37,185 nt of DNA from Bacillota bacterium (GTDB taxonomy: Bacteria; Bacillota; Dehalobacteriia; UBA4068; UBA4997): NCBI GenBank assembly GCA_021771915.1, contig JAETNY010000017.1:1-37185 (forward strand). Reading direction: 5' to 3'. Positions 635 to 24,863 of the stretch are shown here, piece after piece. Every line of letters starts with the position of its first letter. Position 1 is the stretch's first letter. The notes under the pieces were generated by a model. The model saw only the letters and a program-made list of their open reading frames with translations, was not told the origin of the DNA and did not search any database. A program made the translations under genes and the position numbers.

Positions 635-663
635 TTGACAAATGTGTTGGAAAGTGTTATCAT
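635..663 (+). promoter_or_regulatory. Sigma-A promoter of the cobalamin uptake operon
   Basis: TTGACA at 635-640 and TATCAT at 658-663 are separated by exactly 17 bases, a near-consensus housekeeping promoter. It lies in an AT-rich stretch after virB4 and directly upstream of the first cobalamin riboswitch. Transcription would start near 670. The cargo operon therefore has its own promoter rather than depending on read-through from the conjugation genes. Confidence 0.8.
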
Positions 664-679
664 TTAGGCATAAAAAAAT

Positions 680-1228: not shown

Positions 1229-1326
1229 TGAAGCAAATGGCAGCATAAAGAAAAATGTTTGATTTTTCCGGGAAATGCTGTTGCAGGCATTTCCTTTTTT
1301 ATATAGTATGTTTGCCATTTGCTTCA
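1229..1326 (+). repeat. 14-bp perfect inverted repeat around the second terminator
   Basis: TGAAGCAAATGGCA (1229-1242) is the exact reverse complement of TGCCATTTGCTTCA (1313-1326). The two arms bracket the terminator hairpin at 1271-1294. Within the same interval CAGCAT (1241-1246) can pair with ATGCTG (1275-1280), which would disrupt the terminator stem. The arms could thus belong to an alternative fold of the leader. No function is proven. Confidence 0.6.
1271..1300 (+). terminator. Intrinsic terminator of riboswitch 2
   Basis: GGAAATGC (1271-1278) pairs with GCATTTCC (1287-1294), followed by T-run 1295-1300. It lies about 70 bases before the start codon of the first structural gene, so it is placed to gate the operon. 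Confidence 0.87.
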
Positions 1327-1367
1327 AGTTGAAGATTTACAAAATCATAGAAATGGAGGCAAACAAA

Positions 1368-4300
1368 ATGAAAAGATTTAAAAGCCGGGCGCTTAGCCTG
1401 TTGTTGACATTGGCAATGTTGGTTGGTATGCTGCCAACCACGGCGTTAGCCACTGATAGCGAGCTGGATAATTTGGTTTATAAAAACAATCTGGATACAT
1501 ATATTATGCCATTGGCTGGCGACGAGCCGATTGAGATAAGCACGGCGGAGGATTTGAAGCAGTTGGCAAGTGCGGCTGAGGGCAGTCAGTTTGTTTTGGC
1601 GGCGGATATTACGCTGCCGGCGGACTGGGAGCCAATAGAATTTGCTGGTGTGTTAAATGGTAATGGTTACACAATAACCTTAACTGGCAATCCTGTTTTT
1701 AAAAACCTGAATTCAGGTTCTATAATTAGTAATTTGATTTTGGCAGGGGCAGTTACAAGCGGTTCCACGCACATTTCTTCTTTGACCTCTAATAATTGCG
1801 GCGGAACGGTGAGAAATTGTATTTCTTATACTGATGTAACTTATACTGGGTCTGCCGGTGGTTTGATGCCAAGGTTTGTTGGCGGTTTGGTTGCGCAGTT
1901 TTCTTCCACTGGTGGTGTGATGAACAACTGTGTTTACGCCGGAACTTTAACACAAGGCAATGCGGATGCTTGGGGCTCGCTTGCAAATGCCGCCTATGGT
2001 GCAAATCCTATAATAACAGTTTGTATTGGCGTTGGCGTTGACAGAATAGGTTCTTCTGAGGGCTTGTCAAGTTGTACTGAAATATTAGTTGGTAACAACA
2101 CGCTAATTCCTGACGCAGCAAATTTTGACCCTACGGATTATCTGGAACAGCTTAACCAAAACCGTGATGTTACGGCAGGCGATTTGGAATGGGAGGTTGT
2201 CGGTGATAAGCTGACATTAAAGCGCACTGTGGTCGAGGCTCCCGAAGCAACGCCAGAAGAAATGGCCGCTTTGCAGGCTGCTGTTGCCCAAGCTGTTGAT
2301 ACCGGTAAAGTTTATACTGCGGACAGCTGGGCTGCCTATGTTGAGGCATTGAGCAAGGCGCAGGGCATTTTACAGCAGGAAACGCTAAAGCAAGATGTGG
2401 TGGTTAATGCAACTGACAAGCTGAACGCTGCATTTAATGGTTTAACAGAGCGTATTTTGGCGGTTGTTGATTTGAGCGGCGAGGAAGTTATTCCCATAAC
2501 AAGCGTCAGTGGTTTGGGAAATATGCAGGCTGGTAAATATTATCGCCTGGACGCTGATTTGGAAATTAAATCTACAGATTATTATTTTCCAGCAGAAATG
2601 AACGCTGTTTTTGACGGCAACGGCCATACCATAACCCTTAGCAATAAAAATTATGTTTGGAAATCGCTCGGCCCAAATGCAGTTGTGCAAAATTTGGGCG
2701 TTAAAGGCGGCGTTGCTTCTGCCAACAATGCCGGGGCGATTGCCGGGGCCAGCCAGGGTTTGATTATCAACTGCTGGTCTTTGGCAAATGTTACCACCAA
2801 TGGACAGAACGGCAATTTGAAGCATACCGGCGGCCTGGTGGGTCAGCTGCAATCCGGCGGTGCGATTGTGAACAGCTGGGTGGCTGGCAATGTGGTCGGC
2901 AAGGGTGTCAACACGGCAAACGGTAGCGTTGGCGCATTGGTCGGCAGCACGGAGGCCAACAGCATGCTGCAAAATTGCTATTACCAGACCGGTGCAGCCA
3001 GCCAAATTGTCGGCGTGGAGGGCGTACAAATTACTGATTGCGCAGAAAAAGCACGCAAGGATTTTTACAGCCAGACATTTATTGACCTGTTGAACGCTCA
3101 CAAAGAGGGCGGCAAGGAATGGACGCTTTCCGCCGAGGGTTATCCGCATTTGGGCGAGGCGCAGGAATATATACCACCGGAAGATATGAAGATAACCTTT
3201 AACTATCTGAAGGAGGGTAAGCAGCCGGTCGAGTTTAAAACCTCGGACGGTTTTGAGGTAAGCTTGCAGGACGCGGTGGCGGTGGGAAATGACCGCTACA
3301 AGGTTGGTACTTTTTCTATGCCGGGCGTAGCGCGTTGGCAAGATACAATAGTTGGCAATAAAGACGTTTTGTTGGTTAATGAAGATGGTACTTTAAGCAT
3401 ATATAAACCGGGCAGCGCAGAGGTGGTAGCAATCAGTTCTGAGGAGAGCGGTTCCACGGAGCTGGCGCGCTTTACGGTAACGGTGGTTGAGGGCGAAGCC
3501 GTTGATGAATTTCGTTTGGCGATTGACGGCCAGCCGGTTGGCGATACTCTGACTTTGCAGGGCAGCGAACATAAAACCCTTACGCCGCAAATTAAGCTGG
3601 CCGGTGCAGACGCCTGGCAGGATATTGCTGTAAGCCAGGTTGAGTTTTCGCACACCGGCAGTTTGCACCGGGTAAATAACAGTATTTATGCCGAAGAACC
3701 CGGCGAAATGACGCTGACCGCTAAATATCAGGACAAGGAAATTACCATTAATATTGTGTCTGCGTTTGTGGCGGTTACCAGTATTAAACCGGCTCCGGCT
3801 GGCGAATATTATATTCACCAGCGCAACCCTAATGGCCAGCCCTTGGGTGATTTTCTGGATTTAACATTGTCCCATAAAGCAGGCACCGTAATTGTGGAGC
3901 CGGAAAACGCCAGTTATCGGGATAAGTGGCAGATGACCTCCAGCGACGATACGATTGTGGAATGTAAAAATAGTATGATAATTGCCGCCCTGCCTAAAGC
4001 GGCCGGCACGGTTACCTTAACCGCCGTGGTGGCGGAGGAGGGCGCGCAGCCCCGTGTGGATGGAACCTCACAGGTTACAATTAAATATGAAAATCCGGTG
4101 CAGACGGTTAGTATTGCGCAAACCAGGCTGACGGTTAAAGAGAATGCGGAAATTCCGCTGCCGATTACTTTCAGCGGCCCCAAATCGGCGGACGGCCTGT
4201 GCGTTACCGAGCCGGCTATGGATTGGAGCTTCAGCGGCGAGGGCGTGGTGCGGATTGAAACGGACGGTTCGCCTATTATTTGGGAGGAAAAACCGGACGG

Positions 4301-7283
4301 AACCAAACCCTGCGAAGCCAACGATAAGTTTAAGCTGATTGGCGTAAGGGCCGGCGAGGTTAAAGTGGTTGGCACGCCGCAGGATAAAACCGGCAACGCC
4401 AAGCCTGTTGAATTTACGGTTACGGTAACGCCGGGCGAGGCTCTGCCGGACGCTGATAACCACGCATTGGCGTGGGCCGGCATTGCCGCCGGCGCGGCTT
4501 ATTTGACGGCCAACGCGCCGGTGGAATATCGCTATGGCAATGAATGGGAAATTTTTGCTTTGCGCCGTTCCGGCCAGACCATTGACCCGGCCAAGCTGGA
4601 AGCTTATCTGGATTCCGTGGCGGCGGCTTATCAGAACAACCCCGGCGCAACGGAAACCAAACCGACGACTATTGCCAGGGTGGCTTTAACTCTGAGCGTT
4701 TTGGGGGAAAATGCGGCGGATTTCCGTGGGCTGAATTTTATTGATATGCTTTGTAATTCAGAGCGTATCGGCGAGGGCGGCAATGAGCCGATGTGGGCCT
4801 TGCTGACTTTGGACAGCCGGGATTATGCCGAGCCTGCCGGCGCCCTTTGGACAAGGGACAAGCTGGCGACGGAATTGATTTTGCAATATCAAAACCCGGA
4901 GGGCGGCTTTGGCCTGACGGACAACGTAACGGCCAGCGTGGATATGACGGCGATGGCGGTGCAGGCTTTGGCGCCTTATTATACCAACCGGGCTGACGTT
5001 AAGGAAGCCGTGGACAAGGCTTTGGCTTATCTGCAAAGCCAAATGAGCGCGGATTGCGGCTTTAACAGCAATGTGGAGGGCACGGCGCAGGTTGTTTTGG
5101 CGCTTGCCGCCTTAAACCGCAACCCGGCGTTGCCGGAAAGTGGTTTTGCGCCTAATCTTGCCGTCAATATGCTCACAAACATCGCCAGCTTTGCCGCAGA
5201 GGGCGGCGGCTACAAGCATTACGCCGCGGATCGCGCGCCGCAGATTATGAGCACCACGCAGGCGGTGTTGGCTTTTGAAGCTTATCTACGCCAGGCCAAT
5301 GCAGAAAATTTCATTTATGATTTAAGCGATGTTAATCGTTTGGCGATGCTGCAACAGCGTTTGGCGGAAGCCGAGAGTTTGCGAGAAGCTGATTACACGG
5401 CGGAAAGCTGGCAGGCGTTGCAGACGGCCAAAAATACTGCACAGCAGCTGTTGGCAGGAGCTTATACCGAAGCGGATTTGCAGGCGGCGGACAAAGCTTT
5501 GGCGGCGGCCATTGCCGGCTTAAAGCTGCTAAACCCGGATAGCAAACCCAACCCCGGCCCGGACGCTAAGACGATTACCGTGTCTTTTCGCCTGATTGGT
5601 GATAACAAGCATGAGGGCGCAGACACGCACGAAAAATATATCAACTGGATTAAGACTATGAATATAACCGTTCCTGATGGCAGCACGGTTTATGATGTTT
5701 TTGTGGAGGCCCTGAGCCAGAAAGGGCTAAATTTTGAAGAGGGCCAGTATAGCTATATCAGTAGCATTCAGGCTCCGGCCGTGTTGGGCGGCTTCTGGCT
5801 GACTGAATTTGATAACGCTCCCAGCAGCGGTTGGAAATATCTGGTGAACGGCAGGTATCCTAATGTAGGTTTGCGTTATTATTGGCCGAAAAACGGCGAC
5901 GTTATCATTTGGCGTTATGTCGATGATTACACTGATAATAAGGATAACAGCAACAAATGGCAGGAGGCCGAGGATATTGACCCCAACCCCAGCATGAGCG
6001 GCGGCTCCGGCGGGCTGACCGGCGTGTCCGGCGAGAAAACCTCAATCTTGGCTCCGGAGGTCAACATTGACGCTAAGGGTGCGGCTACGGCGGAGATAAG
6101 CGTTAAAGACGTGGTAGACGCGCTGAAAAAGGCGCAAAAAGATAAGGCGGAAAGCATTACCATTATGCCGCAGAACACCGGCAAGGCTAAGGAAATAACC
6201 GTCAGCCTGAAAGTGGATTCCGCAAAGGATATTGCAGCTGCGGAAATCGGCCTGAATGTGAACACTAGCAAAGGCAGCCTGGCTATTCCCCACCCGGCTT
6301 TGCAGTCGATTGCCAAGCAGGCCGGCGGCGTGGATATTCGTATCAATGTGAGCGAGCAGGACACTAAAAAAGAAGAAGTCAACGCAAAGGTGAACAACGC
6401 TTTGCAACAGGCGGCGGCAATTTTCAGAGGCGCTATGGAAACGCTGTTTGCGAACGCCTGCGTAACTAACGTGACGATTACCTCCAACGGTAAGGAAATT
6501 AACACTTTTGACGGCCACCAGCTGACCATCAATCTGCCGGTTGATAGCAAGCATTTTGCCAAGGACGAAAGCTATAAGGTGGTTGTGTTGAGTTCTGACA
6601 GTACGGTGGAAACGCTTATCGGCAAATGCCTGCGTGTAAACGGCGAGCTGGTGGTGCAGGTGAAAGTAAGCCATTTGAGCACCTTTATCGTAACCACCGA
6701 GAAAGAGAAAGCCGAAATCGCCAAGGTAACGATGAACTTTGCAGATGTGAACGAAAGCCAATGGTTCTATGAAGCGGTTAAGTTCGTTTATGAGGCCGGT
6801 TTGATGAACGGTGAGGGCGAAAACACATTTAACCCCAACGGCAATCTGAACCGGGCAATGCTTGTAACCATTCTGTATCGTCTGGAGCAAAGTCCGGAGA
6901 TTGCAGCCGCTGGCAGGTTCACTGACGTAAAAGCCGGCCAGTGGTACAGCGAAGCGGTTATCTGGGCCAGCGAGAACGGCATTGTGAACGGCTATGAGGA
7001 CGGGACTTTCAAGCCGATGAACAACGTAACCAGAGAGGAAATGGCGGCAATGTTAATGCGTTACGCCGAGTTCAAAAAGATTGACACCTCTGCAACCAAG
7101 GATATTAGCGGCTACAAGGATGCTGCGCAGGTGGCGGAATGGGCCAAGCAAAATATGAGTTGGACTAACTCTGCTGGTCTTATCCAGGGCGATGAGAATA
7201 ACAACCTCAATCCGCAGGGTAAGGCAACCAGAGCCGAGGCGGCAATGATTCTGATGCGGCTGGTTAAAAATGTTTTAGGATAA
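1368..7283 (+). CDS. Secreted SLH-anchored intrinsic factor/transcobalamin-like cobalamin-capture protein (1971 aa)
   Basis: The start is ATG 1368, with GGAGG at 1355-1359. An in-frame ATG at 1275 is rejected because it lies inside the terminator. Domains in order: signal peptide (about 1-30, KRFKSR then a hydrophobic stretch ending ALA); GLUG-like beta-helix repeats (about 50-280); FIVAR-like helical unit (about 296-362); a second beta-helix-like stretch; Ig-like regions (to about 1020); an alpha/alpha-barrel domain of the prenyltransferase/cobalamin-binding type (about 1030-1317, e.g. EPMWALLTLD, NPEGGFGL, VDMTAMAVQAL); second FIVAR-like unit (about 1323-1388); DUF4430 (about 1400-1520, with SSGWKYLVNG and GDVIIWRY); a stalk domain; three SLH repeats (about 1788-1969). 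The barrel-plus-DUF4430 order matches vertebrate intrinsic factor and transcobalamin, which bind B12 between the two domains. B12 binding is inferred from this order and from the riboswitches; the protein is untested. Confidence 0.85.
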   Translation: MKRFKSRALSLLLTLAMLVGMLPTTALATDSELDNLVYKNNLDTYIMPLAGDEPIEISTAEDLKQLASAAEGSQFVLAADITLPADWEPIEFAGVLNGNGYTITLTGNPVFKNLNSGSIISNLILAGAVTSGSTHISSLTSNNCGGTVRNCISYTDVTYTGSAGGLMPRFVGGLVAQFSSTGGVMNNCVYAGTLTQGNADAWGSLANAAYGANPIITVCIGVGVDRIGSSEGLSSCTEILVGNNTLIPDAANFDPTDYLEQLNQNRDVTAGDLEWEVVGDKLTLKRTVVEAPEATPEEMAALQAAVAQAVDTGKVYTADSWAAYVEALSKAQGILQQETLKQDVVVNATDKLNAAFNGLTERILAVVDLSGEEVIPITSVSGLGNMQAGKYYRLDADLEIKSTDYYFPAEMNAVFDGNGHTITLSNKNYVWKSLGPNAVVQNLGVKGGVASANNAGAIAGASQGLIINCWSLANVTTNGQNGNLKHTGGLVGQLQSGGAIVNSWVAGNVVGKGVNTANGSVGALVGSTEANSMLQNCYYQTGAASQIVGVEGVQITDCAEKARKDFYSQTFIDLLNAHKEGGKEWTLSAEGYPHLGEAQEYIPPEDMKITFNYLKEGKQPVEFKTSDGFEVSLQDAVAVGNDRYKVGTFSMPGVARWQDTIVGNKDVLLVNEDGTLSIYKPGSAEVVAISSEESGSTELARFTVTVVEGEAVDEFRLAIDGQPVGDTLTLQGSEHKTLTPQIKLAGADAWQDIAVSQVEFSHTGSLHRVNNSIYAEEPGEMTLTAKYQDKEITINIVSAFVAVTSIKPAPAGEYYIHQRNPNGQPLGDFLDLTLSHKAGTVIVEPENASYRDKWQMTSSDDTIVECKNSMIIAALPKAAGTVTLTAVVAEEGAQPRVDGTSQVTIKYENPVQTVSIAQTRLTVKENAEIPLPITFSGPKSADGLCVTEPAMDWSFSGEGVVRIETDGSPIIWEEKPDGTKPCEANDKFKLIGVRAGEVKVVGTPQDKTGNAKPVEFTVTVTPGEALPDADNHALAWAGIAAGAAYLTANAPVEYRYGNEWEIFALRRSGQTIDPAKLEAYLDSVAAAYQNNPGATETKPTTIARVALTLSVLGENAADFRGLNFIDMLCNSERIGEGGNEPMWALLTLDSRDYAEPAGALWTRDKLATELILQYQNPEGGFGLTDNVTASVDMTAMAVQALAPYYTNRADVKEAVDKALAYLQSQMSADCGFNSNVEGTAQVVLALAALNRNPALPESGFAPNLAVNMLTNIASFAAEGGGYKHYAADRAPQIMSTTQAVLAFEAYLRQANAENFIYDLSDVNRLAMLQQRLAEAESLREADYTAESWQALQTAKNTAQQLLAGAYTEADLQAADKALAAAIAGLKLLNPDSKPNPGPDAKTITVSFRLIGDNKHEGADTHEKYINWIKTMNITVPDGSTVYDVFVEALSQKGLNFEEGQYSYISSIQAPAVLGGFWLTEFDNAPSSGWKYLVNGRYPNVGLRYYWPKNGDVIIWRYVDDYTDNKDNSNKWQEAEDIDPNPSMSGGSGGLTGVSGEKTSILAPEVNIDAKGAATAEISVKDVVDALKKAQKDKAESITIMPQNTGKAKEITVSLKVDSAKDIAAAEIGLNVNTSKGSLAIPHPALQSIAKQAGGVDIRINVSEQDTKKEEVNAKVNNALQQAAAIFRGAMETLFANACVTNVTITSNGKEINTFDGHQLTINLPVDSKHFAKDESYKVVVLSSDSTVETLIGKCLRVNGELVVQVKVSHLSTFIVTTEKEKAEIAKVTMNFADVNESQWFYEAVKFVYEAGLMNGEGENTFNPNGNLNRAMLVTILYRLEQSPEIAAAGRFTDVKAGQWYSEAVIWASENGIVNGYEDGTFKPMNNVTREEMAAMLMRYAEFKKIDTSATKDISGYKDAAQVAEWAKQNMSWTNSAGLIQGDENNNLNPQGKATRAEAAMILMRLVKNVLG
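6732..7275 (+). repeat. Direct repeat copy A (SLH-coding, 544 bp)
   Basis: This segment encodes the three SLH repeats and aligns without gaps to 24315-24858, at a constant offset of 17583 bases. Stretches such as the one encoding QWFYEAVKFVYEAGLMNGEG differ only at scattered, mostly third-position bases. The two SLH proteins share a recent common tail, probably by duplication or gene conversion. Confidence 0.8.
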
Positions 7284-7302
7284 TGTTGTTTTCACAGCTG
7301 AA

Positions 7303-7328
7303 GCCACAGGGTGTTAGGGCCTTGTGGC
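7303..7328 (+). other. Intercistronic stem-loop
   Basis: GCCACAGGG (7303-7311) pairs with CCTTGTGGC (7320-7328) with one G-U pair. There is no T-run, so it is unlikely to stop transcription fully. A processing or mRNA-stabilising site between the first and second genes is more plausible. Confidence 0.45.
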
Positions 7329-7372
7329 CAAAGTTGCATAATAATGTTTAATGAAAAAGGAGATGTGTTTTT

Positions 7373-8998
7373 ATGCGGAAAAGGAGTAGTATTTTAGCGG
7401 TAATTTTAGCGTTGGTTCTCACACTGCTGTCGCTTCCAGCGATGCCGGCCTATGCTTATGAGGACGCTAAGGTAAACGAGGTGGTGCAGGAGGCGGTCAA
7501 GTATATTGCCGATACGGTGAAAAAACCGGCGATTGGCTCCACCGGCGGCGAATGGGCGGTAATTGGCCTGGCACGCAGCGGTTATAATCTGCCGCAGTCC
7601 TATTTTGATGATTATTACAGCGGCGTGGTGGATTATGTTAAGGATTGCGGCGGCGTGCTACATGAGCGCAAATACACCGAATATTCCCGTGTTATTCTGG
7701 CGTTGACGGCGATTGGCCGCGACCCGGCCAATGTGGGCGGCTACAATTTACTGACTCCTCTTGGGGATTATGATGCCACCGTCTGGCAGGGGTTGAACGG
7801 CCCCATCTGGGCCTTAATTGCTTTGGATTGCGGCAATTATGCCGTGCCGCAAAATCCGGCGGCCAAAACGCAGGCCAGCCGGGAAATGTACTTGCAGGCT
7901 ATTTTGGATGCGCAGCTGGCCGACGGCGGCTGGGCTCTCGCCGGCAAGACGGCCACCGCCTCCGACGTGGATATGACCGGCATGGCTTTGCAGGCTTTGA
8001 GCAATTATCAGGACAAGGCAGAGGTTAAAGCGGCCACGGACAAGGCTTTGAGCTGGCTTTCCTCTGTGCAGGATAAGGAGGGCGGCTTCTCCTCCTGGGG
8101 CGAGGCTAATTCGGAAAGCGTGGTACAGGTGATTGTAGCCTTGACCGCTTTAGAAATTCCGCTGGACGACAGCCGTTTTATTAAAGAGGGACACAGCCTG
8201 CTGGATAATCTGTTGAGTTTTTATCAGTCCGGCCAGGGCTTTTTGCATGTGCAAAGCGGCGGCGGCAACAGTTTGATGTCCTCCGAGCAGGGGCTTTACG
8301 CGATGGCGGCGATTAAGCGCGCTAATGCGGGCCAAACTGCGCTTTACGATATGTCCGACGTGCAAAAACAGGCGACGGCGAAGCCGGAACCGGAGCAAAA
8401 ACCAGCAGTGGAAACTAAAACCGTTGATTTTGCCGATTTGGCAGGAGTTTCTGCCGAAGCTAAAGCGGCCATTGAAACGCTGGCCGGCCGGGGGATTATT
8501 ACCGGCGAGCAGGCCGGGGACAAGCTGAACTTCCGTCCGGAGGGCAATATGACCAGAGCGGAATTTTGCGCCATTGTGGTGCGCGCTTTAGGATTGGAAA
8601 CCGCTAAAAGCGGCGTGTTTGCCGACGTGCAAGCGAATGCTTGGTACGCTGCATATGTGGACACCGCCAACGCGCAGGGGATAGTAAACGGCACGGCGGC
8701 CAATGAATTTTCTCCGGGCAGCACCATCACCCGGCAGGAAGCGGCGGCTATGGTGGCCAGGGCGGCGGCCAAATGCGGCCTGGCGAACGATTTGGACGCT
8801 AACGCGGCCAGAGATATTCTGGCGCAGTTTAGCGATTATACCCAAATTGCGGATTATGCCCGTGTGCCAATGGCCTTTTGCTATCAGCAGGGGATATTGG
8901 ACGACAGCGCGCTGACGGTGGAGCCGAACAAGGTGATTGCCAGAGCTGAAATTGCCGAAATGCTTTATAATATGCTCTCCGCCGCTGGGCGACTTTAA
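7373..8998 (+). CDS. Secreted SLH protein with alpha/alpha-barrel (cobalamin-binding alpha-like) domain, 541 aa
   Basis: Start ATG 7373 follows AAAAAGGAGATG. A signal peptide (about 1-28, ending AYA) leads into an alpha/alpha-barrel domain (about 30-320). The repeat signatures are GEWAVIGLARSG, GPIWALIALD, DGGWALAG, DVDMTGMALQAL and EGGFSSWGEAN. These match the alpha domain of the 1971-aa neighbour and the prenyltransferase/squalene-cyclase-like fold. A short Pro/Glu linker follows, then three SLH repeats (about 350-541) for attachment to cell-wall polymers. There is no DUF4430 here, but the next gene, 12 bases downstream, encodes DUF4430 alone. The inference is that this is the alpha half of a two-protein B12 receptor. 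It could instead bind another ligand, since this fold is also used by enzymes; no prenyltransferase catalytic motif was recognised. Confidence 0.8.
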   Translation: MRKRSSILAVILALVLTLLSLPAMPAYAYEDAKVNEVVQEAVKYIADTVKKPAIGSTGGEWAVIGLARSGYNLPQSYFDDYYSGVVDYVKDCGGVLHERKYTEYSRVILALTAIGRDPANVGGYNLLTPLGDYDATVWQGLNGPIWALIALDCGNYAVPQNPAAKTQASREMYLQAILDAQLADGGWALAGKTATASDVDMTGMALQALSNYQDKAEVKAATDKALSWLSSVQDKEGGFSSWGEANSESVVQVIVALTALEIPLDDSRFIKEGHSLLDNLLSFYQSGQGFLHVQSGGGNSLMSSEQGLYAMAAIKRANAGQTALYDMSDVQKQATAKPEPEQKPAVETKTVDFADLAGVSAEAKAAIETLAGRGIITGEQAGDKLNFRPEGNMTRAEFCAIVVRALGLETAKSGVFADVQANAWYAAYVDTANAQGIVNGTAANEFSPGSTITRQEAAAMVARAAAKCGLANDLDANAARDILAQFSDYTQIADYARVPMAFCYQQGILDDSALTVEPNKVIARAEIAEMLYNMLSAAGRL

Positions 8999-9010
8999 GG
9001 AGCGGACGTT

Positions 9011-9835
9011 ATGGCAAAACATAAGAATAGGCTAATTGCCGCCGGGATAATTATTGTAATTTTAGCCGCCCTGTTCTGGTGGGGCGGCAACGCCCCCGGC
9101 TTGCAGGGCTGGAGCGTGGGCGATAAGACGCAGACGGCGGTTCAGTTTGAACGACAGACCGTCGCAGCTAAAGAATTACCGGCAAGTCTGCCGGCAGACG
9201 TTTGGAGCAAGCCTGTTGTCGCTTTGGCGGAGCAGCCGGCAACAAGCCCGGAGAATGAGGAAGAACCGGCGGTAGAAACGCCGGAGAAGCCAAACGCTGA
9301 TGAGCGTAGTGGCGGTATGGAAATCAACCCGGAAACCGGCAAGGATAAGTATAATACCGACCCAGTGCCGGAGGGTAAACCCCTGCCGGTGGAGCCGCAG
9401 GAGGCAGTGATTGGCGAAGCGGCTTACACCTGCACCATTTCCATCTCCTGCGCCACAATTCTGGATAACCCGGACTGGCTGAACCCGGAGAAAACGGAGC
9501 TGGTGCCGGAGGGTGGCGTTATTCTGCCGGCCCAGACCGTAACCTTTTACGAGGGGGAATCGGTGTTTAACGTGTTGCAGCGTACTTGCAAGCAGAACAG
9601 TATTCATATGGAATTCAGCAACACGCCGATGTATAATTCCGCCTACATTGAGGGTATCCACAATTTGTATGAATTTGACTGCGGCGAGGGCAGCGGTTGG
9701 ATGTATAAGGTGAACGGTTGGTTTCCCAACTATGGTTGCTCGCGCTATCAGCTGCAAAACGGCGATGTGATTGAGTGGGTTTTCACCTGCAACCGCGGCG
9801 GCGACGTGGGCGGCGGCCAGGCTGTTGGTAGTTGA
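9011..9835 (+). CDS. Membrane-anchored DUF4430 (transcobalamin beta-domain-like) protein, 274 aa
   Basis: Start ATG 9011 is preceded by TAAGGAG. One N-terminal hydrophobic segment (about 9-27, IAAGIIIVILAALFWW) acts as an uncleaved anchor or signal. A Pro/Glu-rich spacer (about 60-130) and a single DUF4430 domain (about 135-262) follow. The domain shows the conserved core GSGWMYKVNGWFPNYG and NGDVIEWVF. DUF4430 is the Pfam family related to the C-terminal beta domain of transcobalamin and intrinsic factor, which caps bound cobalamin. The arrangement puts the beta half at the membrane, next to the ECF T-component gene 15 bases downstream. The inference is that it receives or caps corrinoid delivered by the SLH alpha-domain protein and passes it to the importer. 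Confidence 0.82.
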   Translation: MAKHKNRLIAAGIIIVILAALFWWGGNAPGLQGWSVGDKTQTAVQFERQTVAAKELPASLPADVWSKPVVALAEQPATSPENEEEPAVETPEKPNADERSGGMEINPETGKDKYNTDPVPEGKPLPVEPQEAVIGEAAYTCTISISCATILDNPDWLNPEKTELVPEGGVILPAQTVTFYEGESVFNVLQRTCKQNSIHMEFSNTPMYNSAYIEGIHNLYEFDCGEGSGWMYKVNGWFPNYGCSRYQLQNGDVIEWVFTCNRGGDVGGGQAVGS

Positions 9836-16116: not shown

Positions 16117-16239
16117 TTGAAAGGAGGACAAAACTTACAAAAAAGTCAGCTCCTGGAAAGATTCAAGGTTAGACAGATACTAAATGAACTCTTCAAGCCG
16201 GCTGATTGCTACCTACTTTCAGCAATCAGCCGGACTTAA
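16117..16239 (+). CDS. Possible 40-aa ORF (hypothetical)
   Basis: The TTG at 16117 is preceded by GAAAGGAGT at suitable spacing. The product is basic at the N-terminus (MKGGQNLQKSQLLERFKVR) and has no recognised domain. Its last third is encoded by one arm of an inverted repeat, CCGGCTGATTGCT/AGCAATCAGCCGG (about 16198-16234), so the frame may be accidental. Confidence is low. Confidence 0.25.
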   Translation: MKGGQNLQKSQLLERFKVRQILNELFKPADCYLLSAISRT

Positions 16240-16343
16240 AGATTTACAGAAAAAATTCAACCGTGGATTTAGAAAAATATTAGTAATGTCTGGTTCCGGG
16301 AATTGAACCAAAAACACAACACGCTGTAAACGGAAAGATTTAA

Positions 16344-16404
16344 CAAAAAAAAGCCAACCGGAAGTGGATGGCAAAAAAATAAACGATTCTCTGGTGGAAT
16401 CGTT
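16344..16404 (-). terminator. Tandem intrinsic terminators of the minus-strand riboswitch
   Basis: On the minus strand the first hairpin pairs bases 16397-16404 with 16382-16389 (AACGATTC/GAATCGTT) and is followed by a U-run at 16379-16372. The second pairs 16366-16372 with 16353-16359 (one mismatch) and has a U-run at 16352-16344. Both directly follow the minus-strand cobalamin aptamer. Confidence 0.8.
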
Positions 16405-16454
16405 GAAAGAAAAATAATAAAGTCTGCCAAGCCTCCCACCCTAAAGGCTTTAAC

Positions 16455-16565
16455 AAACCCTTTTCAATTGGTAACCTGACTTATGCCAGCTGACGCTGAC
16501 AATCACAGTAGAGCTTGGACTGTGTCGGATTTTCACCGACTTCCCCATTTGAAAGGTTATATTGG
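16455..16565 (-). promoter_or_regulatory. Cobalamin riboswitch 3, minus strand, no gene downstream
   Basis: Read on the minus strand it shows GGGGAAGTCGGTGAAAATCCGAC, then CTCTACTGTGAT and the B12-box half TGGCATAAGTCAGGTTAC (ending near 16471). AACCTTTCAA at the 5' side pairs with TTGAAAAGGGTT at the 3' side to close P1. All core cobalamin-aptamer elements are present. Downstream on this strand there are only two terminators and then sequence antisense to the 313-aa gene; no minus-strand gene is seen. It may be a relic of a lost gene or a source of regulated antisense RNA. Confidence 0.9.
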
Positions 16566-16593
16566 AATATTTAGTTGTTAAAATTATGCATTT

Positions 16594-16622
16594 ATTTTAA
16601 TACAGAAAAATAGGATTGTCAA
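16594..16622 (-). promoter_or_regulatory. Consensus promoter for the minus-strand riboswitch
   Basis: On the minus strand, TTGACA (16622-16617) and TAAAAT (16599-16594) have a 17-base spacer. The intact promoter implies that the orphan riboswitch is still transcribed. Confidence 0.8.
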
Positions 16623-16672
16623 TAGCTTTTTGAAAAAATTTTCAGAAAAAAATAATATTTTATAAAATGGTA

Positions 16673-16701
16673 TTGCATTTTAAAAAATTTGGGTGTATAC
16701 T
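16673..16701 (+). promoter_or_regulatory. Promoter for riboswitch 4 and the second B12-linked block
   Basis: TTGCAT (16673-16678) and TATACT (16696-16701) are 17 bases apart. The promoter diverges from the minus-strand one and sits just before riboswitch 4. Confidence 0.8.
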
Positions 16702-16714
16702 GAAAAAAGATATT

Positions 16715-16910
16715 TGAAAAGAAGAATATATTATATAAGCGTGTCGTGAGGAAGCCGGTGTAATTCCGGGACAGATAACTCGCTACTGTGAATTGTTGCT
16801 GTTTCTTCGTTTAGTCACTGTTCAATGTTTTGGATGGGAAGGCAAGGAGATTACAGTTTGCATCAGAAATTTTTGGTGCAGAAGCATAAGTCAGGATATT
16901 CATGGCACAG
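16715..16910 (+). promoter_or_regulatory. Cobalamin riboswitch 4
   Basis: Core elements: GAGGAAGCCGGTGTAATTCCGG (about 16748-16769), CGCTACTGTGAA (16781-16792), a GGGAAGGCAAGGAGATTACAG peripheral segment and a somewhat divergent B12 box (GCATAAGTCAGGATATTCATGG, about 16884-16905). The layout fits the full-size cobalamin class. A long terminator follows at 16965-17032, before the 243-aa gene. By position it regulates that gene and possibly the block to 24863. Confidence 0.87.
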
Positions 16911-17043: not shown

Positions 17044-17775
17044 ATGAATAGAATTTGGTGGCGAAAAATTGTGGGAAGAAGTAAGCGAAAACGTAATGGT
17101 GATAGAACAACCAGGGCATTGGCAAATATGGCTTTGCAGCTAAAAGAGCAGGCATTTAAGCGGCGGTTTGCCGAAGTCGACGACGATAAGCTGCTCAATT
17201 ATCTGGCGCATTGCGCTGGGGAATTTGTCAATGGGCCTGCCTGTACGGATGTTTTGGGGGCTGCTGTTTTGAAAGGGCGATTTGGCGATTGGGACAGTCT
17301 GTTGTTGAAAATTGGCCGGAAGCCTACGCCATATTGCGAGCGTGAAGATGTGCCTGGCTTGTTTGCCAGAGAAGTTGCTGCCCAGGCGGAAATACACAAA
17401 AAAATTGTGGCGGCAATGCAGCAAAATGAGAAAAATTTTGCATTTCAACATGCTGGTGATAGCGACGAGGAATTGCTTGAATATGTGAGGGGTTGGGCTA
17501 AAAGACTCAAGCGCACGCCTAGATATGATGAGGTTTTGGGCGGAGAATATATCAGGAAGCGATTTAAGAACGATTGGCAAAGGGTTCTGCATTTAGCTGG
17601 ATTGAAGAGTTTTCCGGACGCTGCTCCCAGGCTGCACCGGCGGCAGATATATCTGGACGAGGCTAAAAAGCAGATGGGTGTTTATGTTGAGGAATGTATG
17701 CAGGAGATTGCCGGGATTATGCAGGGCAAAAAAGTTAGATATGTTGCACCCACTGATGTGAAAAGTGTGGTGTGA
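17044..17775 (+). CDS. Protein with two homing-endonuclease-associated-type repeats (243 aa)
   Basis: ATG 17044 lacks a good ribosome binding site; GTG 17071, with GGTGG upstream, is an alternative. Two copies of a roughly 50-residue unit align (about 42-95 and 139-190). They share D-[DE]-x-[KE]-LLxY, a Pro, VLG, RF-x-x-[DN]-W and a Gly, as in KGRFGDWDSLLLKIG and KRFKNDWQRVLHLAG. This resembles the homing-endonuclease-associated repeat (HNH_repeat) used for DNA contact. No HNH or other nuclease motif is present. The N-terminus is very basic (RKIVGRSKRKR). It may be a DNA-binding regulator. Its place directly behind a cobalamin riboswitch is unexpected, and its role is unknown. Confidence 0.6.
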   Translation: MNRIWWRKIVGRSKRKRNGDRTTRALANMALQLKEQAFKRRFAEVDDDKLLNYLAHCAGEFVNGPACTDVLGAAVLKGRFGDWDSLLLKIGRKPTPYCEREDVPGLFAREVAAQAEIHKKIVAAMQQNEKNFAFQHAGDSDEELLEYVRGWAKRLKRTPRYDEVLGGEYIRKRFKNDWQRVLHLAGLKSFPDAAPRLHRRQIYLDEAKKQMGVYVEECMQEIAGIMQGKKVRYVAPTDVKSVV

Positions 17776-18450: not shown

Positions 18451-19107
18451 ATGCGTAAGTTGAAATCTTTATTGGTAGCCATTATGGCGTTTGCTATGGT
18501 TATGGCGATGAGCAGCGTGGCTTGGGCCGCTGACCAGTATAAAGTGGATACCAATAACCAGCAAGGTACAGCTACGGTAATCTTTACTAGGAATTGCAGT
18601 GAAAGCAACAATGACGGCCAGCGGTGGGATGGCTTGAGTGAAATTGGTGAATACTTGATTCCAGGTTTGGAGAAGACGACGGTTACTTTTGATGAACTGA
18701 ATGGTATGGTAAAGGGCTATGTTCCGGCAAACACTGACAACTATTTTGGCAACAAGGTTTCCGTTTTTGACGCGATTTACTATCTGGGACAGGACAACAA
18801 AAAAGTTGTTACTCTGGATTGCGGCTGGGGCGACGCTTATACCGATTCGGAAACTGGCATTACCAAACCTGCTGGAGCCTATGTGCACAATGTAAATAAT
18901 CAGGAATTGGAATCTGATTATTTTGTGGAAGATGGCACTGCTTATTCTATCGGCACAGGTTTTGTAGTGGCTGTGCAAAAAGCCGGCGAAACTACGCCTA
19001 CTTTCTCCGATATTTATCTGAGCAACGTGGCGTTGGAAGATGGCATGACTATTTATGTTGACCTGGGCTACTATGATTATAGCTGGGCGGACAATTCTAA
19101 CAAATAA
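18451..19107 (+). CDS. Small secreted DUF4430-like protein (218 aa)
   Basis: ATG 18451 follows GTAAGGAGAG. A clear signal peptide (about 1-27, ending AWA) precedes one domain of about 190 residues. Features resembling DUF4430 are a VSVFDAIYYLG helix (near 107), a central YFVEDGTAYSIGTGFVVAVQ segment and a C-terminal EDGMTIYVDLGYYD strand (compare GDVIxWxY). The SGWxYxVNG core is replaced by a divergent sequence, so assignment is tentative. There is no SLH domain or anchor, so it may be released or bound to partners. Between it and the 1879-aa DUF4430/SLH gene lies only a stem-loop. A free binding subunit for corrinoid or a related ligand is plausible. Confidence 0.6.
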   Translation: MRKLKSLLVAIMAFAMVMAMSSVAWAADQYKVDTNNQQGTATVIFTRNCSESNNDGQRWDGLSEIGEYLIPGLEKTTVTFDELNGMVKGYVPANTDNYFGNKVSVFDAIYYLGQDNKKVVTLDCGWGDAYTDSETGITKPAGAYVHNVNNQELESDYFVEDGTAYSIGTGFVVAVQKAGETTPTFSDIYLSNVALEDGMTIYVDLGYYDYSWADNSNK

Positions 19108-19223: not shown

Positions 19224-22200
19224 ATGATGATGAAAATAAGAAAATCTACATCATTTTGGGCATTTTGCATAATGTTTTTATTATTATGCGTATTGCCTGG
19301 CAGTGCCTTTGCCGCCGATATTACGGTTTATCTGACTGTCGGCGCAGGCGGAGAACTGCAAAGAGCTGCCGACGGCAGCGTTATGGCCTATAAGCCGGTT
19401 ACGGTGCCGGAGGGGGCAACGGTACAGGATGTGATTGCCAAGGCGCATAACGATTATCTGGGCGGCACAGAGGGTTTTGCCGTTGAGAGTGATGTTATAA
19501 AAAAACTTTGGAATAAAACGGTGGCTGATACTGCCAAAAATTTCTTCATCATTGAAGTTAACCCTAATAAAAATCTGAATTATTCGAACTTAATGGCAAA
19601 AAAAGCAGAAAAAAATTTGTCAGATAATGTGCTTGACGGTTATTATTATTTTATTACCGATAGCTATAATGGTACAAAAAAAACGACAGCTTTTTTTGCA
19701 GGTAATGGAATAAGAAAAAGTTCTCAATTTTTTATTGCGGATGTGGTGGTGAAAAAGGGCGAAGATTTTGCGGCGGTGCTTTCCGCTTGTGATGGCAGCA
19801 TTCAAAAATATTTGGAGAATTATGATATATATGCCAGCAAGGATGGCGGTGAATTTGCGAAAATAGATGGCAAACCTACTGACAATAAAGGCAATTTTAC
19901 AATCAATCTGACGGAAACCGGCGATTATATTATTACGGCCAAACCGCAGAATACAACTGCCTTGAACATCTTTATGCGCCCGGCTTTGCATATTAAAGTG
20001 ATTAACGCGGAGGACGCTCCTAAATTGGAAAACATTCAAATTGACTTAACAGATCAATTTGCAGGTGAAAATTTATTAGGTCAATTTGATAAAAATATAA
20101 ATGAATATATCATGACGGTTTCAGAAAGCCAAATAGCTGGCAGCAAAAGCTTTGGCCTTTGGGTAAAGCCGCAAATTACTAATGAGGTTTTGCGACAAAT
20201 GCCTCAGTTGGCCTGGGCGACGGCAGCTGAAGCCGGCGCTTTGAGTTCGCCAAACACAAAATACTTTAATGAAACAGAATTTGCGTATTGGTCTATCACT
20301 CCTGGCATGCTTAACAAAAAAATTTTTTTGCTGAACCATGCAGTGGCCGATTGCGCTATTTTGGCGGAATATATAATTAACTTCCAATATGTGCCGGTGC
20401 TGACCAATTTAGAATTTGGCGAGGGCGCTGTTATGCCGGAAGCCTTTGCCAGTGAAACCGGGGAGTATCAGGTATCCATTACCGATGAAAATGCGCAGGC
20501 TATTGCTATTACGCCCAGTATTGATACTGATTTGGGCGCTAATGAAGATTATTCTATTACAATCAACGGCCAGAATTTCCCGGCTGGGCAGGCTACTGAA
20601 TTGAATTTGGCCGGGTTAAGCTGGAATGAAGATGACGGCGTACCGAAAGCCACAGTTGATCTTGTTGTCAATAAACAATCGGAGCATAAAAATTATCTGT
20701 CTAATACCTACACATTAAATTTAATTAAAATGGCGCTAACAGACGAACCGCAGTTTGCCAAACAGCCAGTGGGGGCTGAATATATCGTAAGTTCGGCGTT
20801 TAGGAACCCAACAGAACAGCCAGTGGCGGAGTTGAGCGTTTTTGCGGTGGCCACGCAGCCGGTAACTTATCAATGGTATTGTATTGCCAACGATACCGAG
20901 GCGGAAAGGCTGGTTAATGCCACCGAGCAAAACTATCTGCCGAGTGTGGAGCAGGCCGGGGATTATAAATATTACTGTGTGGCCGGTTATACCACGGGAG
21001 AGGGAGAAGATCAGCAGGAGTTTTACACCAAATCTGATGAGGTATTGGTTACGGTGTATAATGATCCCACGCCGATAGTCAGGTTTAAGACGGCCATACC
21101 CAATATGCCGGCGGACAAGCTGGCCTATTTGAATGAAATTCTGGGGAGCAGTTATCAATATCAAAAAGGCTTTTATTATCGGGCAGAAGATACCAATGTT
21201 ACGCCCGTAGAATTGGTGGTTACTCTGCCTGATGATGTGCAAGCCAAAAATCCGGAAATTAGTTACAGTTGGAGTTACCGCGGGCTTACAACCAGCGGCG
21301 GTATTTACCAACAGTTTATAAATGGTATTTTTTCACCGCTGACGGATAAAGAATATGGTTTCCGCTATTATATACCGAGAGTGTCAGTTAAATTTTTAGA
21401 TTATAGTTTCTCTACTGATAGCCAAGATAACAATTTGTGGCTTTCGGTTTTTGTGGATAAGAAAGAAGAAATTATTGACCCCACCGACTGGCCGGGCAAT
21501 GGCACCGAGGCCGAACCATGGCAGCTGCGCAATGCCGAGGATATTCAGCGCTTGGCCGAGCGAGTAAACAGCGGCACAACCTATGAGGGAAAATTCTTCA
21601 AGATGACGGCGGATATTACCCTGCCCAAAGATTATCCGGGCATGGGGCTGGCTCCGGGCGGCAATGAGAGCAAGGGCGCAAATCTGAAACCGTTTTCCGC
21701 CACATTTGACGGCGGTAATTTTACGCTGACCTATGAATACGGCGCAGAAACCCCGTTGATTAGAGTGGCCAGAGAAGCTACGGTTAAAAACCTGAATATT
21801 AACGCGCCGTATATTAAAAATTCAGCAGTGTTGGGTGAAATATATTTGGATTATGGTTCAGACGGCGATTACAGCGCCGGTACCGGCGGCAGCTATCAAG
21901 CAGGTACGCCGGATACCATAGATATTAGCAATGTAACAATTAAAAGCGGTTCCAACATTTTGAAATCCGGCTTTATTGGCGAAGGAGAAGGTTCCTCTGG
22001 TGCAAATACAATCAATATAACAAATTGTAAAATTGAAAAAGGCGTAAATATCGGTTATGACGCAGATAAGCAGGCCAGCGCCGGCTTAAATAGTATTGGC
22101 AGCTTTGCCGGCAGCATTAGCGGTACAATCAATAATTGCTGGAGTGCTGCCACAGTTTACGGCAATAATTCTGTTGGCGGTATCGTAGGAAATAAGAGCC

Positions 22201-24863
22201 AGTCCATGGGTTTCTTCAAAATTTCTAACAATGCTTTTACAGGCAAGATTATCGCTACCGGCAATTATGTGGGCGGTATTTTGGGCGCAGGCTATAACGG
22301 CGGTGGTACAGCGCCGAACACCCCCTGCGTAACAGTTACCAACAGCTATGTGGCGGCGGATATTTCCGGCAAAGATTTTATTGGCGGCATTGTTGGCAGC
22401 GAACCGGGTACTGTACAGTCCTGGGGTAACGCTTATATTCGAGATAATTTCTATTATGGTAAAATAACCGCTGGCGCTGACGCACAGAGCGTTGGCAGCA
22501 TTATTGGTTATATGAATGGCCTGAATATTTGCAGTATTTTTGAAAATAACTATTATTTGAACGATTGCGGTGCAGATAAGCCAATCGGCAAGGCAAAATA
22601 TATTGATACCAGCGCCGAGCATGGCAGTGAGCCGGGAGTTATTTATGTTAATACGGCAGTGGAATTGCCAACAGATGAGAACGGTAAGAGAATTACTGGT
22701 TTTGATAAAAAAGATATGAACCGCACTGACGATCCACTGGGCAAGGATAAGGATAAACTTGCACAGCCGATGACGGCGAAACAATTTGCTGATGGCACAG
22801 TGCTCAATTTACTTAACAGCTCTGCCAGCAGCGCTAAAAACTGGGTTCAGGATGAAAAATATCCAGTTTTTGACGGCAACAAGGTTATCCCGCTTTCCCT
22901 GACAATCGACGGCGAATACAAGGCGGAATATTATATCGGCGATGAACTGGATTTAAGCAAGGCCGTATTCACGCTGAACATGAGCGACGGCTCGACAATG
23001 AAGCTCAATTTGAGCGATATTAAAATTAGCGGTTTTGATACCAATACGCGTGGCGAGCAAACGCTAACGGCGGAATATAACGGCCTGACCGTAGAATTTA
23101 AGGTTACGGTGCTGAAAAAGCCGGAGCAAAATCCGGGAAATCCGGGTGTAGATCCGAATAAGATTAGGGTATATTTCACTCTTATGGGCGACAGCGTACA
23201 CGGCGCGCCAACCAGTGATAAAGATACCCACACGCTGAAAAATAGAAATCTGCAAACCTGGATTGCTCGCAAGGCATATGACGTGGATTTGAACGCCACC
23301 GTTCTGGACGTGTTTGAGCAGGCTCTGACCGAAGCAGGTATGACCTGGCGCAATCCCAGCGGCAACTATATCGAGGCTATCACCGGCAACGGCGTAACGC
23401 TGGCTGAGTTCAGCAACGGCAATCTCTCTGGATGGATGTACACCCTAAACGGTGAACACCCCACCAAGGGCGTAAGCGAGCAGTTTTTGGAGAATAATGA
23501 TGTGATTGTCTTCCACTATACCGATGATTACAAGATTGAGAAAGGCTCCGACAACTGGGGCGGCAGTAGCAGTAAACCGATAGGCGGCGGAGCGGCAGGC
23601 GGCGAATCTGGCATAGTCCTCACCCCAGGCACTGTTGAGGGAGCAGACGGCAAGAACCTGGCCACAATGACTGTTAAGGAAATCACCAAGGCCATTGAAA
23701 ATGCTAAGAACGACAGCGTTAAGAATATCATTATTGAGCCGAACATTAAGGGCAGCGCCAGCAACGTATCTTTAAGCCTGCCGATTGATTCCCTCAACGA
23801 TATGGCCAAAGAGCAAATGAACCTGTATATGAACAGCAGGCAGGGCAGTTTGAATTTGTCTGCGGCAGTATTGCAGTCTATTGCCAAACAGGCCGGCGGC
23901 ATAGATATTCGCCTGAATGTGGAAAATAAGGAACTCAAGCAGGACGACGTTAAGGCAAGCGCGGCTAACGCTTTGGCACAGGCGGCCGCCAACCTGCGTG
24001 GCGCAGCGGAAAGTCTGCTTGCCAACGCCAGCGTAACCGAGGTTACTGTAACCTCCAACGGAAAAGCAATCACCAGCTTTGACGGCCACGATTTGACGGT
24101 TTACCTGCCGGTAAGCAATCGAGATTTGTTCACCGAGGGGCAGAATTACAAGGTGGTGGTAATCAGTTCTGACGGTACGGTGGAAACGATTATCGGTAAG
24201 TGCGTTAAGTACAATGCGCAGATTATGGTGCAGGTTAAGGTAAATCATTTGAGTACCTTTATCGTAACCAATGAAACTGAAAAAGAGGTTGTGGCGCAGC
24301 CGCAGAACGGCGCAATGAACTTTAGCGACGTTAAGGAAAACCAGTGGTTCTATGAAGCGGTTAAGTTTGTGTATGAAGCCGGTTTGATGAACGGCGAGGG
24401 TGAAAACAGTTTTAACCCCAACGGCAATCTGAATCGGGCAATGCTGGTAACTATTCTGTATCGTTTGGAGCAAAGCCCCGAAGTTACAACAGCTTCTAAA
24501 TTTACTGACGTAAAAGCTGGTCAGTGGTACAGCGAAGCGGTTATCTGGGCCAGCGAGAATGGTATTGTCAACGGCTATGAGGATAACACATTTAAGCCGA
24601 TGAACAATGTAAGCCGTGAGGAAATGGCGGCAATGCTGATGCGCTATGCCAAGTTCAAGCAGATTGACGTTTCTGCTACCAAGGATATTAGCGGTTACCA
24701 GGACGCTGCGCAAGTGGCGGAATGGGCTAAACAGAATATGGCCTGGTCCAATTCGGCTGGCTTAATCCAGGGTGATGAGCATAATAACCTCAACCCCCAG
24801 GGTAAGGCCACCAGAGCCGAGGCGGCGATGATTTTGATGAGGCTGGTTAAGAACGTACTTTAG
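19224..24863 (+). CDS. Giant secreted SLH protein with DUF4430, Ig-like and beta-helix regions (1879 aa)
   Basis: The first of three ATGs (19224, 19227, 19230) follows GGGAGGA. Order: signal peptide (about 1-30); an N-terminal domain with DUF4430-like traits (TVPEGATVQDVIAKAH); beta-sandwich regions; an Ig-like unit with QWYC (about 545); beta-helix/GLUG-like repeats (about 753-1119, e.g. SVGGIVGN, YVGGILG, FIGGIVGS); a Big_3-like domain (near 1235-1300); a clear DUF4430 (about 1312-1436, LSGWMYTLNG and NNDVIVFHY); the stalk domain shared with the 1971-aa protein; three SLH repeats (about 1696-1877). It lacks the alpha/alpha barrel, so unlike its paralogue it could not alone form a two-domain B12 cage. 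It is likely a surface adhesin or ligand-presenting protein linked to the same uptake system. Confidence 0.8.
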   Translation: MMMKIRKSTSFWAFCIMFLLLCVLPGSAFAADITVYLTVGAGGELQRAADGSVMAYKPVTVPEGATVQDVIAKAHNDYLGGTEGFAVESDVIKKLWNKTVADTAKNFFIIEVNPNKNLNYSNLMAKKAEKNLSDNVLDGYYYFITDSYNGTKKTTAFFAGNGIRKSSQFFIADVVVKKGEDFAAVLSACDGSIQKYLENYDIYASKDGGEFAKIDGKPTDNKGNFTINLTETGDYIITAKPQNTTALNIFMRPALHIKVINAEDAPKLENIQIDLTDQFAGENLLGQFDKNINEYIMTVSESQIAGSKSFGLWVKPQITNEVLRQMPQLAWATAAEAGALSSPNTKYFNETEFAYWSITPGMLNKKIFLLNHAVADCAILAEYIINFQYVPVLTNLEFGEGAVMPEAFASETGEYQVSITDENAQAIAITPSIDTDLGANEDYSITINGQNFPAGQATELNLAGLSWNEDDGVPKATVDLVVNKQSEHKNYLSNTYTLNLIKMALTDEPQFAKQPVGAEYIVSSAFRNPTEQPVAELSVFAVATQPVTYQWYCIANDTEAERLVNATEQNYLPSVEQAGDYKYYCVAGYTTGEGEDQQEFYTKSDEVLVTVYNDPTPIVRFKTAIPNMPADKLAYLNEILGSSYQYQKGFYYRAEDTNVTPVELVVTLPDDVQAKNPEISYSWSYRGLTTSGGIYQQFINGIFSPLTDKEYGFRYYIPRVSVKFLDYSFSTDSQDNNLWLSVFVDKKEEIIDPTDWPGNGTEAEPWQLRNAEDIQRLAERVNSGTTYEGKFFKMTADITLPKDYPGMGLAPGGNESKGANLKPFSATFDGGNFTLTYEYGAETPLIRVAREATVKNLNINAPYIKNSAVLGEIYLDYGSDGDYSAGTGGSYQAGTPDTIDISNVTIKSGSNILKSGFIGEGEGSSGANTINITNCKIEKGVNIGYDADKQASAGLNSIGSFAGSISGTINNCWSAATVYGNNSVGGIVGNKSQSMGFFKISNNAFTGKIIATGNYVGGILGAGYNGGGTAPNTPCVTVTNSYVAADISGKDFIGGIVGSEPGTVQSWGNAYIRDNFYYGKITAGADAQSVGSIIGYMNGLNICSIFENNYYLNDCGADKPIGKAKYIDTSAEHGSEPGVIYVNTAVELPTDENGKRITGFDKKDMNRTDDPLGKDKDKLAQPMTAKQFADGTVLNLLNSSASSAKNWVQDEKYPVFDGNKVIPLSLTIDGEYKAEYYIGDELDLSKAVFTLNMSDGSTMKLNLSDIKISGFDTNTRGEQTLTAEYNGLTVEFKVTVLKKPEQNPGNPGVDPNKIRVYFTLMGDSVHGAPTSDKDTHTLKNRNLQTWIARKAYDVDLNATVLDVFEQALTEAGMTWRNPSGNYIEAITGNGVTLAEFSNGNLSGWMYTLNGEHPTKGVSEQFLENNDVIVFHYTDDYKIEKGSDNWGGSSSKPIGGGAAGGESGIVLTPGTVEGADGKNLATMTVKEITKAIENAKNDSVKNIIIEPNIKGSASNVSLSLPIDSLNDMAKEQMNLYMNSRQGSLNLSAAVLQSIAKQAGGIDIRLNVENKELKQDDVKASAANALAQAAANLRGAAESLLANASVTEVTVTSNGKAITSFDGHDLTVYLPVSNRDLFTEGQNYKVVVISSDGTVETIIGKCVKYNAQIMVQVKVNHLSTFIVTNETEKEVVAQPQNGAMNFSDVKENQWFYEAVKFVYEAGLMNGEGENSFNPNGNLNRAMLVTILYRLEQSPEVTTASKFTDVKAGQWYSEAVIWASENGIVNGYEDNTFKPMNNVSREEMAAMLMRYAKFKQIDVSATKDISGYQDAAQVAEWAKQNMAWSNSAGLIQGDEHNNLNPQGKATRAEAAMILMRLVKNVL
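24315..24858 (+). repeat. Direct repeat copy B (SLH-coding, 544 bp)
   Basis: Gap-free counterpart of 6732-7275 at a 17583-base offset, in the same orientation and reading frame. Weaker similarity extends upstream into the stalk domain (about 23600 onward versus about 6040 onward). Recombination between the copies would delete the whole transporter block while leaving a hybrid surface protein. Confidence 0.8.

Follow-up and report, generated by a model that had tools for sequence, protein, structure and literature searches.

What is captured and imported by a set of surface proteins that is encoded next to an ATP-driven transporter, behind cobalamin riboswitches and between conjugation genes? 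The question is raised by the 37,185-nucleotide contig JAETNY010000017.1 of a gut-type Clostridia bacterium (Bacillota; assembly GCA_021771915.1), and the window analysed here is this complete contig (C46) of the 2.3-Mb source genome (G000). Our analysis confirms that the gene package is real as the initial annotation described it. Because of the predicted folds, a CbrT-like S domain, the riboswitches and the context of CbiR-like and host genes, we read its ligand as vitamin B12 or a related corrinoid, and we consider it highly probable that the package is a CbrTUV-type system in which riboswitches control both the capture of corrinoids by transcobalamin-like surface proteins and their import, and that a conjugative element carries it as cargo.

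The core of the locus is an operon of seven closely spaced plus-strand genes (1275–15088), which encode, in order, an S-layer protein with toroid and DUF4430 domains, an S-layer toroid protein, a membrane DUF4430 protein, an energy-coupling factor (ECF) T component, an AP-endonuclease-2-type protein, a PP-loop protein and an ATPase-ATPase-S (A-A-S) fusion; all window features given below lie on the plus strand unless stated otherwise. The longest open reading frame of the first gene encodes 2002 amino acids (aa; 1275–7283), and the ATG at 1368, which is preceded by GGAGG and opens a signal peptide, gives a predicted capture protein of 1971 aa (1368–7283) with repeats, a FIVAR domain, the toroid (aa 1065–1348 of the 2002-aa frame), DUF4430 (aa 1426–1562) and three SLH domains. 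It is followed by the 541-aa S-layer toroid protein (7373–8998; toroid E = 4e-8, SLH E = 6e-22), whose family of 38 sequences has a mean column identity of 65%, and by a 274-aa protein (9011–9835; PF14478, 75.3 bits) with a single N-terminal membrane segment and DUF4430 as its lone domain, for which the mean column identity is 70% over 52 homologues. DUF4430 recurs in a second S-layer protein of 1879 aa (19224–24863), together with Ig-like and three SLH domains and with no toroid. The two domain types are thus seen fused and split, on S-layer or membrane anchors, as had been annotated.

These two domain types had been likened to those of human intrinsic factor and transcobalamin, and structure comparison bears this out. 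The toroid and DUF4430 domains of the first S-layer protein were modelled together with AlphaFold (predicted local distance difference test, pLDDT, 88.4), and in a Foldseek search of the PDB ranks 1–15 were all transcobalamin, intrinsic factor or haptocorrin (E = 2e-9 to 4e-7), the first match outside these carriers being a terpene cyclase (E = 1e-4). VIA-align aligns ~350 residues across both domains with the carriers at Z of 19–20. The model of the membrane-anchored DUF4430 protein (pLDDT 94) has the beta domain of transcobalamin among its best matches in both programs and also matches 3U7Z, a solved bacterial DUF4430 structure from Ruminococcus gnavus; in VIA-align, DUF4430 alone reaches Z of 12–14 over ~100 residues with the carriers, and other beta-grasp proteins stay below 8 except 3U7Z. 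The same model shows a helix (residues 56–66) followed by two strands (71–76 and 81–87), and such a two-strand hairpin is the clade mark of the transcobalamin-type beta-grasp domain (PMC1796856).

The transporter genes point to the same class of substrate. The T component (9851–10783) belongs to the CbiQ family (PF02361, 27.6 bits; cut-off 25), and the 886-aa A-A-S fusion (12428–15088) contains two ABC domains (E = 3.8e-58) and an ECF S domain (aa ~690–886; E = 5.4e-10), so that both annotated parts are present and a T component stands with two ATPase domains, as in a CbrTUV-type transporter. The S domain, with a mean column identity of 82% across its homologues, has CbrT (6FNP_A) as its sole PDB sequence match at E ≤ 1 (E = 4.8e-11 with the single sequence), and with a profile 6FNP_A (E = 1.8e-12) comes out far ahead of the next match. 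CbrT carries cobalamin and cobinamide, for which hemin does not compete (PMC5997447), and CbrUVT is an accepted annotation for a B12 transporter (PMC6593275).

Riboswitches provide a third line of evidence. They were called with Rfam RF00174 at its gathering score, and all counts come from Rfam, a self-built model (R1) having been set aside for its poor structure (16 pairs). Three plus-strand matches and one minus-strand match exceed the threshold in the window: a tandem pair in front of the operon (668–859, 104.3 bits; 983–1131, 49.8 bits), one in front of a second gene unit (16751–16898, 39.6 bits) and one on the minus strand (16449–16594, 34.9 bits). The window, 1.6% of the source genome, thereby holds 4 of its 7 cobalamin riboswitches (binomial p = 2e-6). 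When 31 related loci (586 kb) were scanned, 17 cobalamin riboswitches were found at 15 of them, mostly less than 550 bases from the first operon gene, where ~0.8 would be expected at this genome's own rate; a single T-box was the only member of any other Rfam riboswitch family above the gathering score. The fraction is approximate, since the choice of these loci depended on their length and gene content, and several were included because they had given no match with R1.

The proposed check for the same gene set elsewhere was run by scanning genome contigs with the A-A-S protein, which returned 497 related stretches; locus counts were made on 80 of these. The T gene precedes the A-A-S gene in 73 of the 80, and in the 66 loci where T does not stand at a contig start, DUF4430 is encoded directly upstream in 55 and a toroid as well in 45. 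Most related loci belong to Oscillospiraceae and other Clostridia, the single archaeal and Bacteroidota labels probably being binning or naming errors, and DUF4430 was found in 32 of 41 genomes searched. This conservation bears on whether the surface proteins might be ordinary S-layer adhesins in which toroid and DUF4430 are structural. SLH, Ig-like and FIVAR domains are indeed typical of many kinds of surface protein, but toroid and DUF4430 are conserved together next to T and A-A-S, and riboswitches stand at the operon starts, which makes an adhesin hardly credible. DUF4430 domains 38–49% identical to those of the window also occur in three unannotated records named 'Bacteriophage sp.' from human faeces (MT837027.1, MT839226.1 and MT835727.1), which may be bacterial fragments.

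Several observations weigh against a corrinoid system. Profile searches of the PDB with toroid and DUF4430 sequences gave cyclases or nothing significant, and no transcobalamin, so the transcobalamin link rests on fold comparison. In VIA-align, the toroid alone scores equally or higher with cyclases and epimerases. The arrangement of the two modelled domains is unlike that of holo-transcobalamin (root-mean-square deviation 6.5 over ~350 residues); in a model, this placement may differ from the ligand-bound protein because the ligand is missing, and it proves nothing. No cobalamin riboswitch above the cut-off was found at 16 of the 31 scanned loci. The host genome carries cbiC, cbiD and CbiMQ-type cobalt transport genes, and because of these genes the host may, by its gene content, make corrinoids itself. 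Finally, the S protein of an L. curvatus operon is 39% identical to that of the window and is seemingly closer to it than L. delbrueckii CbrT is. That operon consists of an LPXTG toroid protein, DUF4430, T, A and S, and we take the operon of Lactobacillus sakei to be its homologue, with the same make-up. The L. sakei ECF system was reported to be a heme importer, according to a statement in PMC7299338 that cites Verplaetse.

Heme is accordingly the main rival ligand: the same architecture might import heme or another tetrapyrrole, the fold being shared and the ligand different. Against this stand the cobalamin riboswitches at 15 of the 31 Clostridia loci, whereas the L. curvatus locus yielded none, the S domain, whose only PDB match is CbrT, a carrier with whose substrate hemin does not compete, and the CbiR-like gene within the operon; we therefore regard heme as quite unlikely here. 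A cobalamin riboswitch was likewise not found at a second Lactobacillales locus, that of the L. plantarum plasmid pMF1298-5. Given the L. sakei report and the two Lactobacillales loci where no riboswitch was found, the ligands may have diverged between the Lactobacillales and the Clostridia systems.

The two enzyme genes between T and A-A-S raise the question of whether complete corrinoids or their parts are handled. The first encodes a CbiR-like TIM-barrel protein of the AP-endonuclease-2 type (10767–11756), a candidate cobamide phosphodiesterase, with PF01261 at 36.6 bits, above the curated cut-off of 31.1. Its identification as a true CbiR was rejected, since its score with family NF041277 is 16.8 bits, far below the cut-off of 105; of 12 members, 4 reach E ≤ 1, and a His/Asp/Glu pattern is conserved. 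CbiR itself (PMC7733943) is likewise a member of the AP endonuclease 2 superfamily encoded near corrinoid genes, and the window protein represents another branch of that superfamily. The second gene encodes a PP-loop ATP pyrophosphatase (11753–12394; Diphthami_syn_2, PF01902, E = 1.6e-35), whose family also occurs at an Oscillospiraceae and a Butyricicoccus locus. The adjacent CbiR-like and PP-loop genes recur at 16 and 7 related loci, respectively (window and duplicates counted), and the pair is a candidate for a new cobamide-processing family.

An enzyme of this kind hints at the handling of partial corrinoids, CbrT also takes cobinamide and the T subunit falls in the CbiQ family, all of which would suit import of cobalt, or of a precursor or piece of B12 (cobinamide, alpha-ribazole), and not of complete cobamides. 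The modelled transcobalamin-like cleft between two domains would, however, suit a whole corrinoid, and for cobalt the host has a separate CbiMQ-type system adjoining a cobalamin riboswitch of its own; such a restricted substrate is, in our judgement, very unlikely. The host further carries CobS, B12-binding proteins and btuFCD-type genes. The idea of the host as a B12 auxotroph is unsupported, as cbiC and cbiD are present.

A second unit lies downstream of the operon and comprises a 313-aa secreted protein (15100–16041) with a weak match to a copper amine oxidase N1 domain, a homing-endonuclease-associated (HNH) repeat protein (17044–17775; PF18780, E = 9e-12), a 218-aa secreted protein (18451–19107; signal peptide by eye, no family above the cut-off) and the second S-layer protein, with the riboswitch at 16751–16898 in front. 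All four annotated cobalamin riboswitches were thus recovered above the gathering score, but the one on the minus strand does not control the package and was rejected as its regulator, since no minus-strand package gene lies in front of it. Elsewhere in the source genome (C3:86263–90891), a relic in which an A-A-S 3' end, the region of the minus-strand riboswitch, SLH ends and an NlpC start are preserved flanks a minus-strand btuFCD-type operon, the leader of which is homologous to the window's minus-strand riboswitch (window 16040–16734 and C3:89603–90287 are 91.7% identical), and the gene for the 313-aa protein stands where the relic has btuFCD. Because the homologue leads btuFCD and this gene fills the place of btuFCD, the most fitting reading of the orphan riboswitch is a leader left over from a btuFCD operon that belonged to this family of elements and that the window has lost or had replaced.

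Is the package mobile? As annotated, conjugation genes stand on both flanks: the 3' end of virB4, a conjugal ATPase of the CD1110 family (40–561; NF045971, E = 6e-80), on one side, and on the other an NlpC/P60 gene of the transfer module (25183–27651), a DinG/YoaA-type helicase (30435–32453) and three serine recombinase genes of 513, 174 (partial) and 552 aa (32694–36461). The last 116 bases of contig C39 of the same genome are identical to the first 116 of the window, and joining the two yields a complete-looking virB4; besides its 5' part, C39 carries genes for a type IV coupling protein and for VirB2-like, toxin–antitoxin-like, TrbL/VirB6-like and PrgI-like proteins (the small genes identified by eye). 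The toxin–antitoxin pair, ParE/Phd-like by eye, lies within the transfer module on the minus strand (C39-locus coordinates 1748–2309) and is also found in a relative's genome (G006). Since virB4 and NlpC/P60 adjoin closely, with no cargo, in another relative (G007:C11) and in three other elements of the source genome (C18, C3 and C21), the 24-kb cargo has apparently been inserted between these two genes of the transfer module. In a third relative (G005:C55:10258–22300), virB4 precedes fragments of the riboswitch region, HNH-repeat proteins and a DUF4430-SLH gene, the ECF operon lying instead on C29; as virB4 is trailed there by the second unit only, the cargo is modular. At least four more virB4 genes of the CD1110 type are present in the source genome (C18, C3, C13 and C21), and hence several other conjugative elements.

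Comparison with a single housekeeping gene, purH, suggests movement. Element DNA is 94% identical to that of G006 over 15 kb and 91–97% over other pieces, with purH at 81%, whereas G007, with purH 95% identical, lacks DUF4430 as well as any close homologue of A-A-S. In a tree of A-A-S proteins, the window copy clusters with G005, G006 and an Oscillospiraceae, apart from other copies of its genus. From these sequence comparisons, there are signs of a recent exchange of the system between species. The element could alternatively be a decayed, immobile relic whose B12 genes are now chromosomal, a view that concerns mobility only and is compatible with corrinoid capture and import. In its favour, virB4 is broken in the near-identical G006 element, a decayed copy exists at C3, the coupling protein on C39 falls into two overlapping reading frames, and no relaxase was identified, although no search was aimed at a relaxase or att sites and both contigs, C39 and C46, break off within the element. 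Conversely, virB4 of the source genome looks complete when C39 and the window are joined, a type IV transfer ATPase and site-specific recombinases are present, and the cross-species identity of the element lies far above that of purH, so that we hold a relic to be a serious but minority possibility. The annotated travel by conjugation thus applies in part: the package is carried by a conjugative element that shows signs of having been transferred recently, and because conjugation genes are unseen in most of the related stretches, mobility belongs to this copy and its close relatives.

The initial annotation knew of no characterised system with such a layout, but the layout is not new: Burroughs et al. 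(2007; PMC1796856) already described these domains in operons with CbiO and CbiQ in Gram-positive bacteria, predicting B12 scavenging by toroid and beta-grasp surface proteins. Those systems share with the window the domain pair, FIVAR fusions, paralogous pairs and CbiO-/CbiQ-like operons; riboswitches, SLH anchors and conjugative elements, all three present here, go unmentioned in that text, and its hosts are mostly without key enzymes of B12 synthesis, whereas this host has cbiC and cbiD. CbrTUV (PMC5997447; CbrUVT in PMC6593275) has the same S, T and two ATPase parts with a homologous S protein, but in the window A, A and S form one chain, the operon includes surface proteins, and S identity to L. 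delbrueckii CbrT is low. On the mobilizable plasmid pMF1298-5 (PMC6722938), CbrV-CbrU-CbrT likewise lie beside toroid and DUF4430 proteins; unlike in the window, the carrier is a plasmid, A and S are separate and salvage genes (cobS) are nearby. There, the protein at locus 9638–11459, beside DUF4430 and CbrT, is annotated as 'fucose-binding lectin II', likely a misannotation judging from its match to the toroid profile (E = 5e-22). Since this plasmid and L. curvatus p1_CACC879 carry the same five parts, carriage on mobile DNA has precedent. Human intrinsic factor, haptocorrin and transcobalamin share the toroid and beta-grasp folds predicted here, but the bacterial parts are S-layer or membrane anchored, partly split and encoded with an ECF pump, while the human proteins use an endocytic receptor. 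In Bacteroides, B12 acquisition genes have reportedly been moved by mobile elements as well, in work by Frye and colleagues from 2021; those transporters are said to be of the outer-membrane BtuB type, with proteins unrelated to those of the window. This kind of gene set was therefore predicted in 2007 and is common in Clostridia, and its pump is known as CbrTUV; our literature search found no report of a Clostridia member tested for B12. What is added here is the riboswitch evidence, the CbrT link, the S-layer anchors, the remodelling-type enzymes and the conjugative carriage.

In the proposed route for corrinoid capture and import, the riboswitches, judged by their class, would permit expression when coenzyme B12 is scarce. 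The S-layer proteins would then act in the cell wall, trap corrinoids between toroid and DUF4430, as intrinsic factor does, and pass them to the membrane-anchored DUF4430 protein and on to the CbrT-like S domain, from which, by homology, the A-A-S protein with T would import the ligand using ATP; binding, hand-over and import are inferred here from models and gene content. More speculatively, the CbiR-like and PP-loop enzymes might trim foreign cobamides, from which the host could rebuild its own. That one conjugative element carries this full chain, from S-layer capture through DUF4430 hand-over and CbrT-type import to remodelling by a novel phosphodiesterase related to CbiR and its PP-loop partner, and thereby lets a recipient use foreign cobamides, is a proposal that we advance tentatively.

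If corrinoid capture and import is the correct reading, many Clostridia would catch B12 with relatives of human intrinsic factor and transcobalamin, and the proposal made in 2007 that such proteins came to animals from Gram-positive bacteria would gain support. It would also help to fill an acknowledged gap in the annotation of B12 transport in gut genomes (PMC6593275), and it would mean that B12 acquisition moves between gut species by conjugation.

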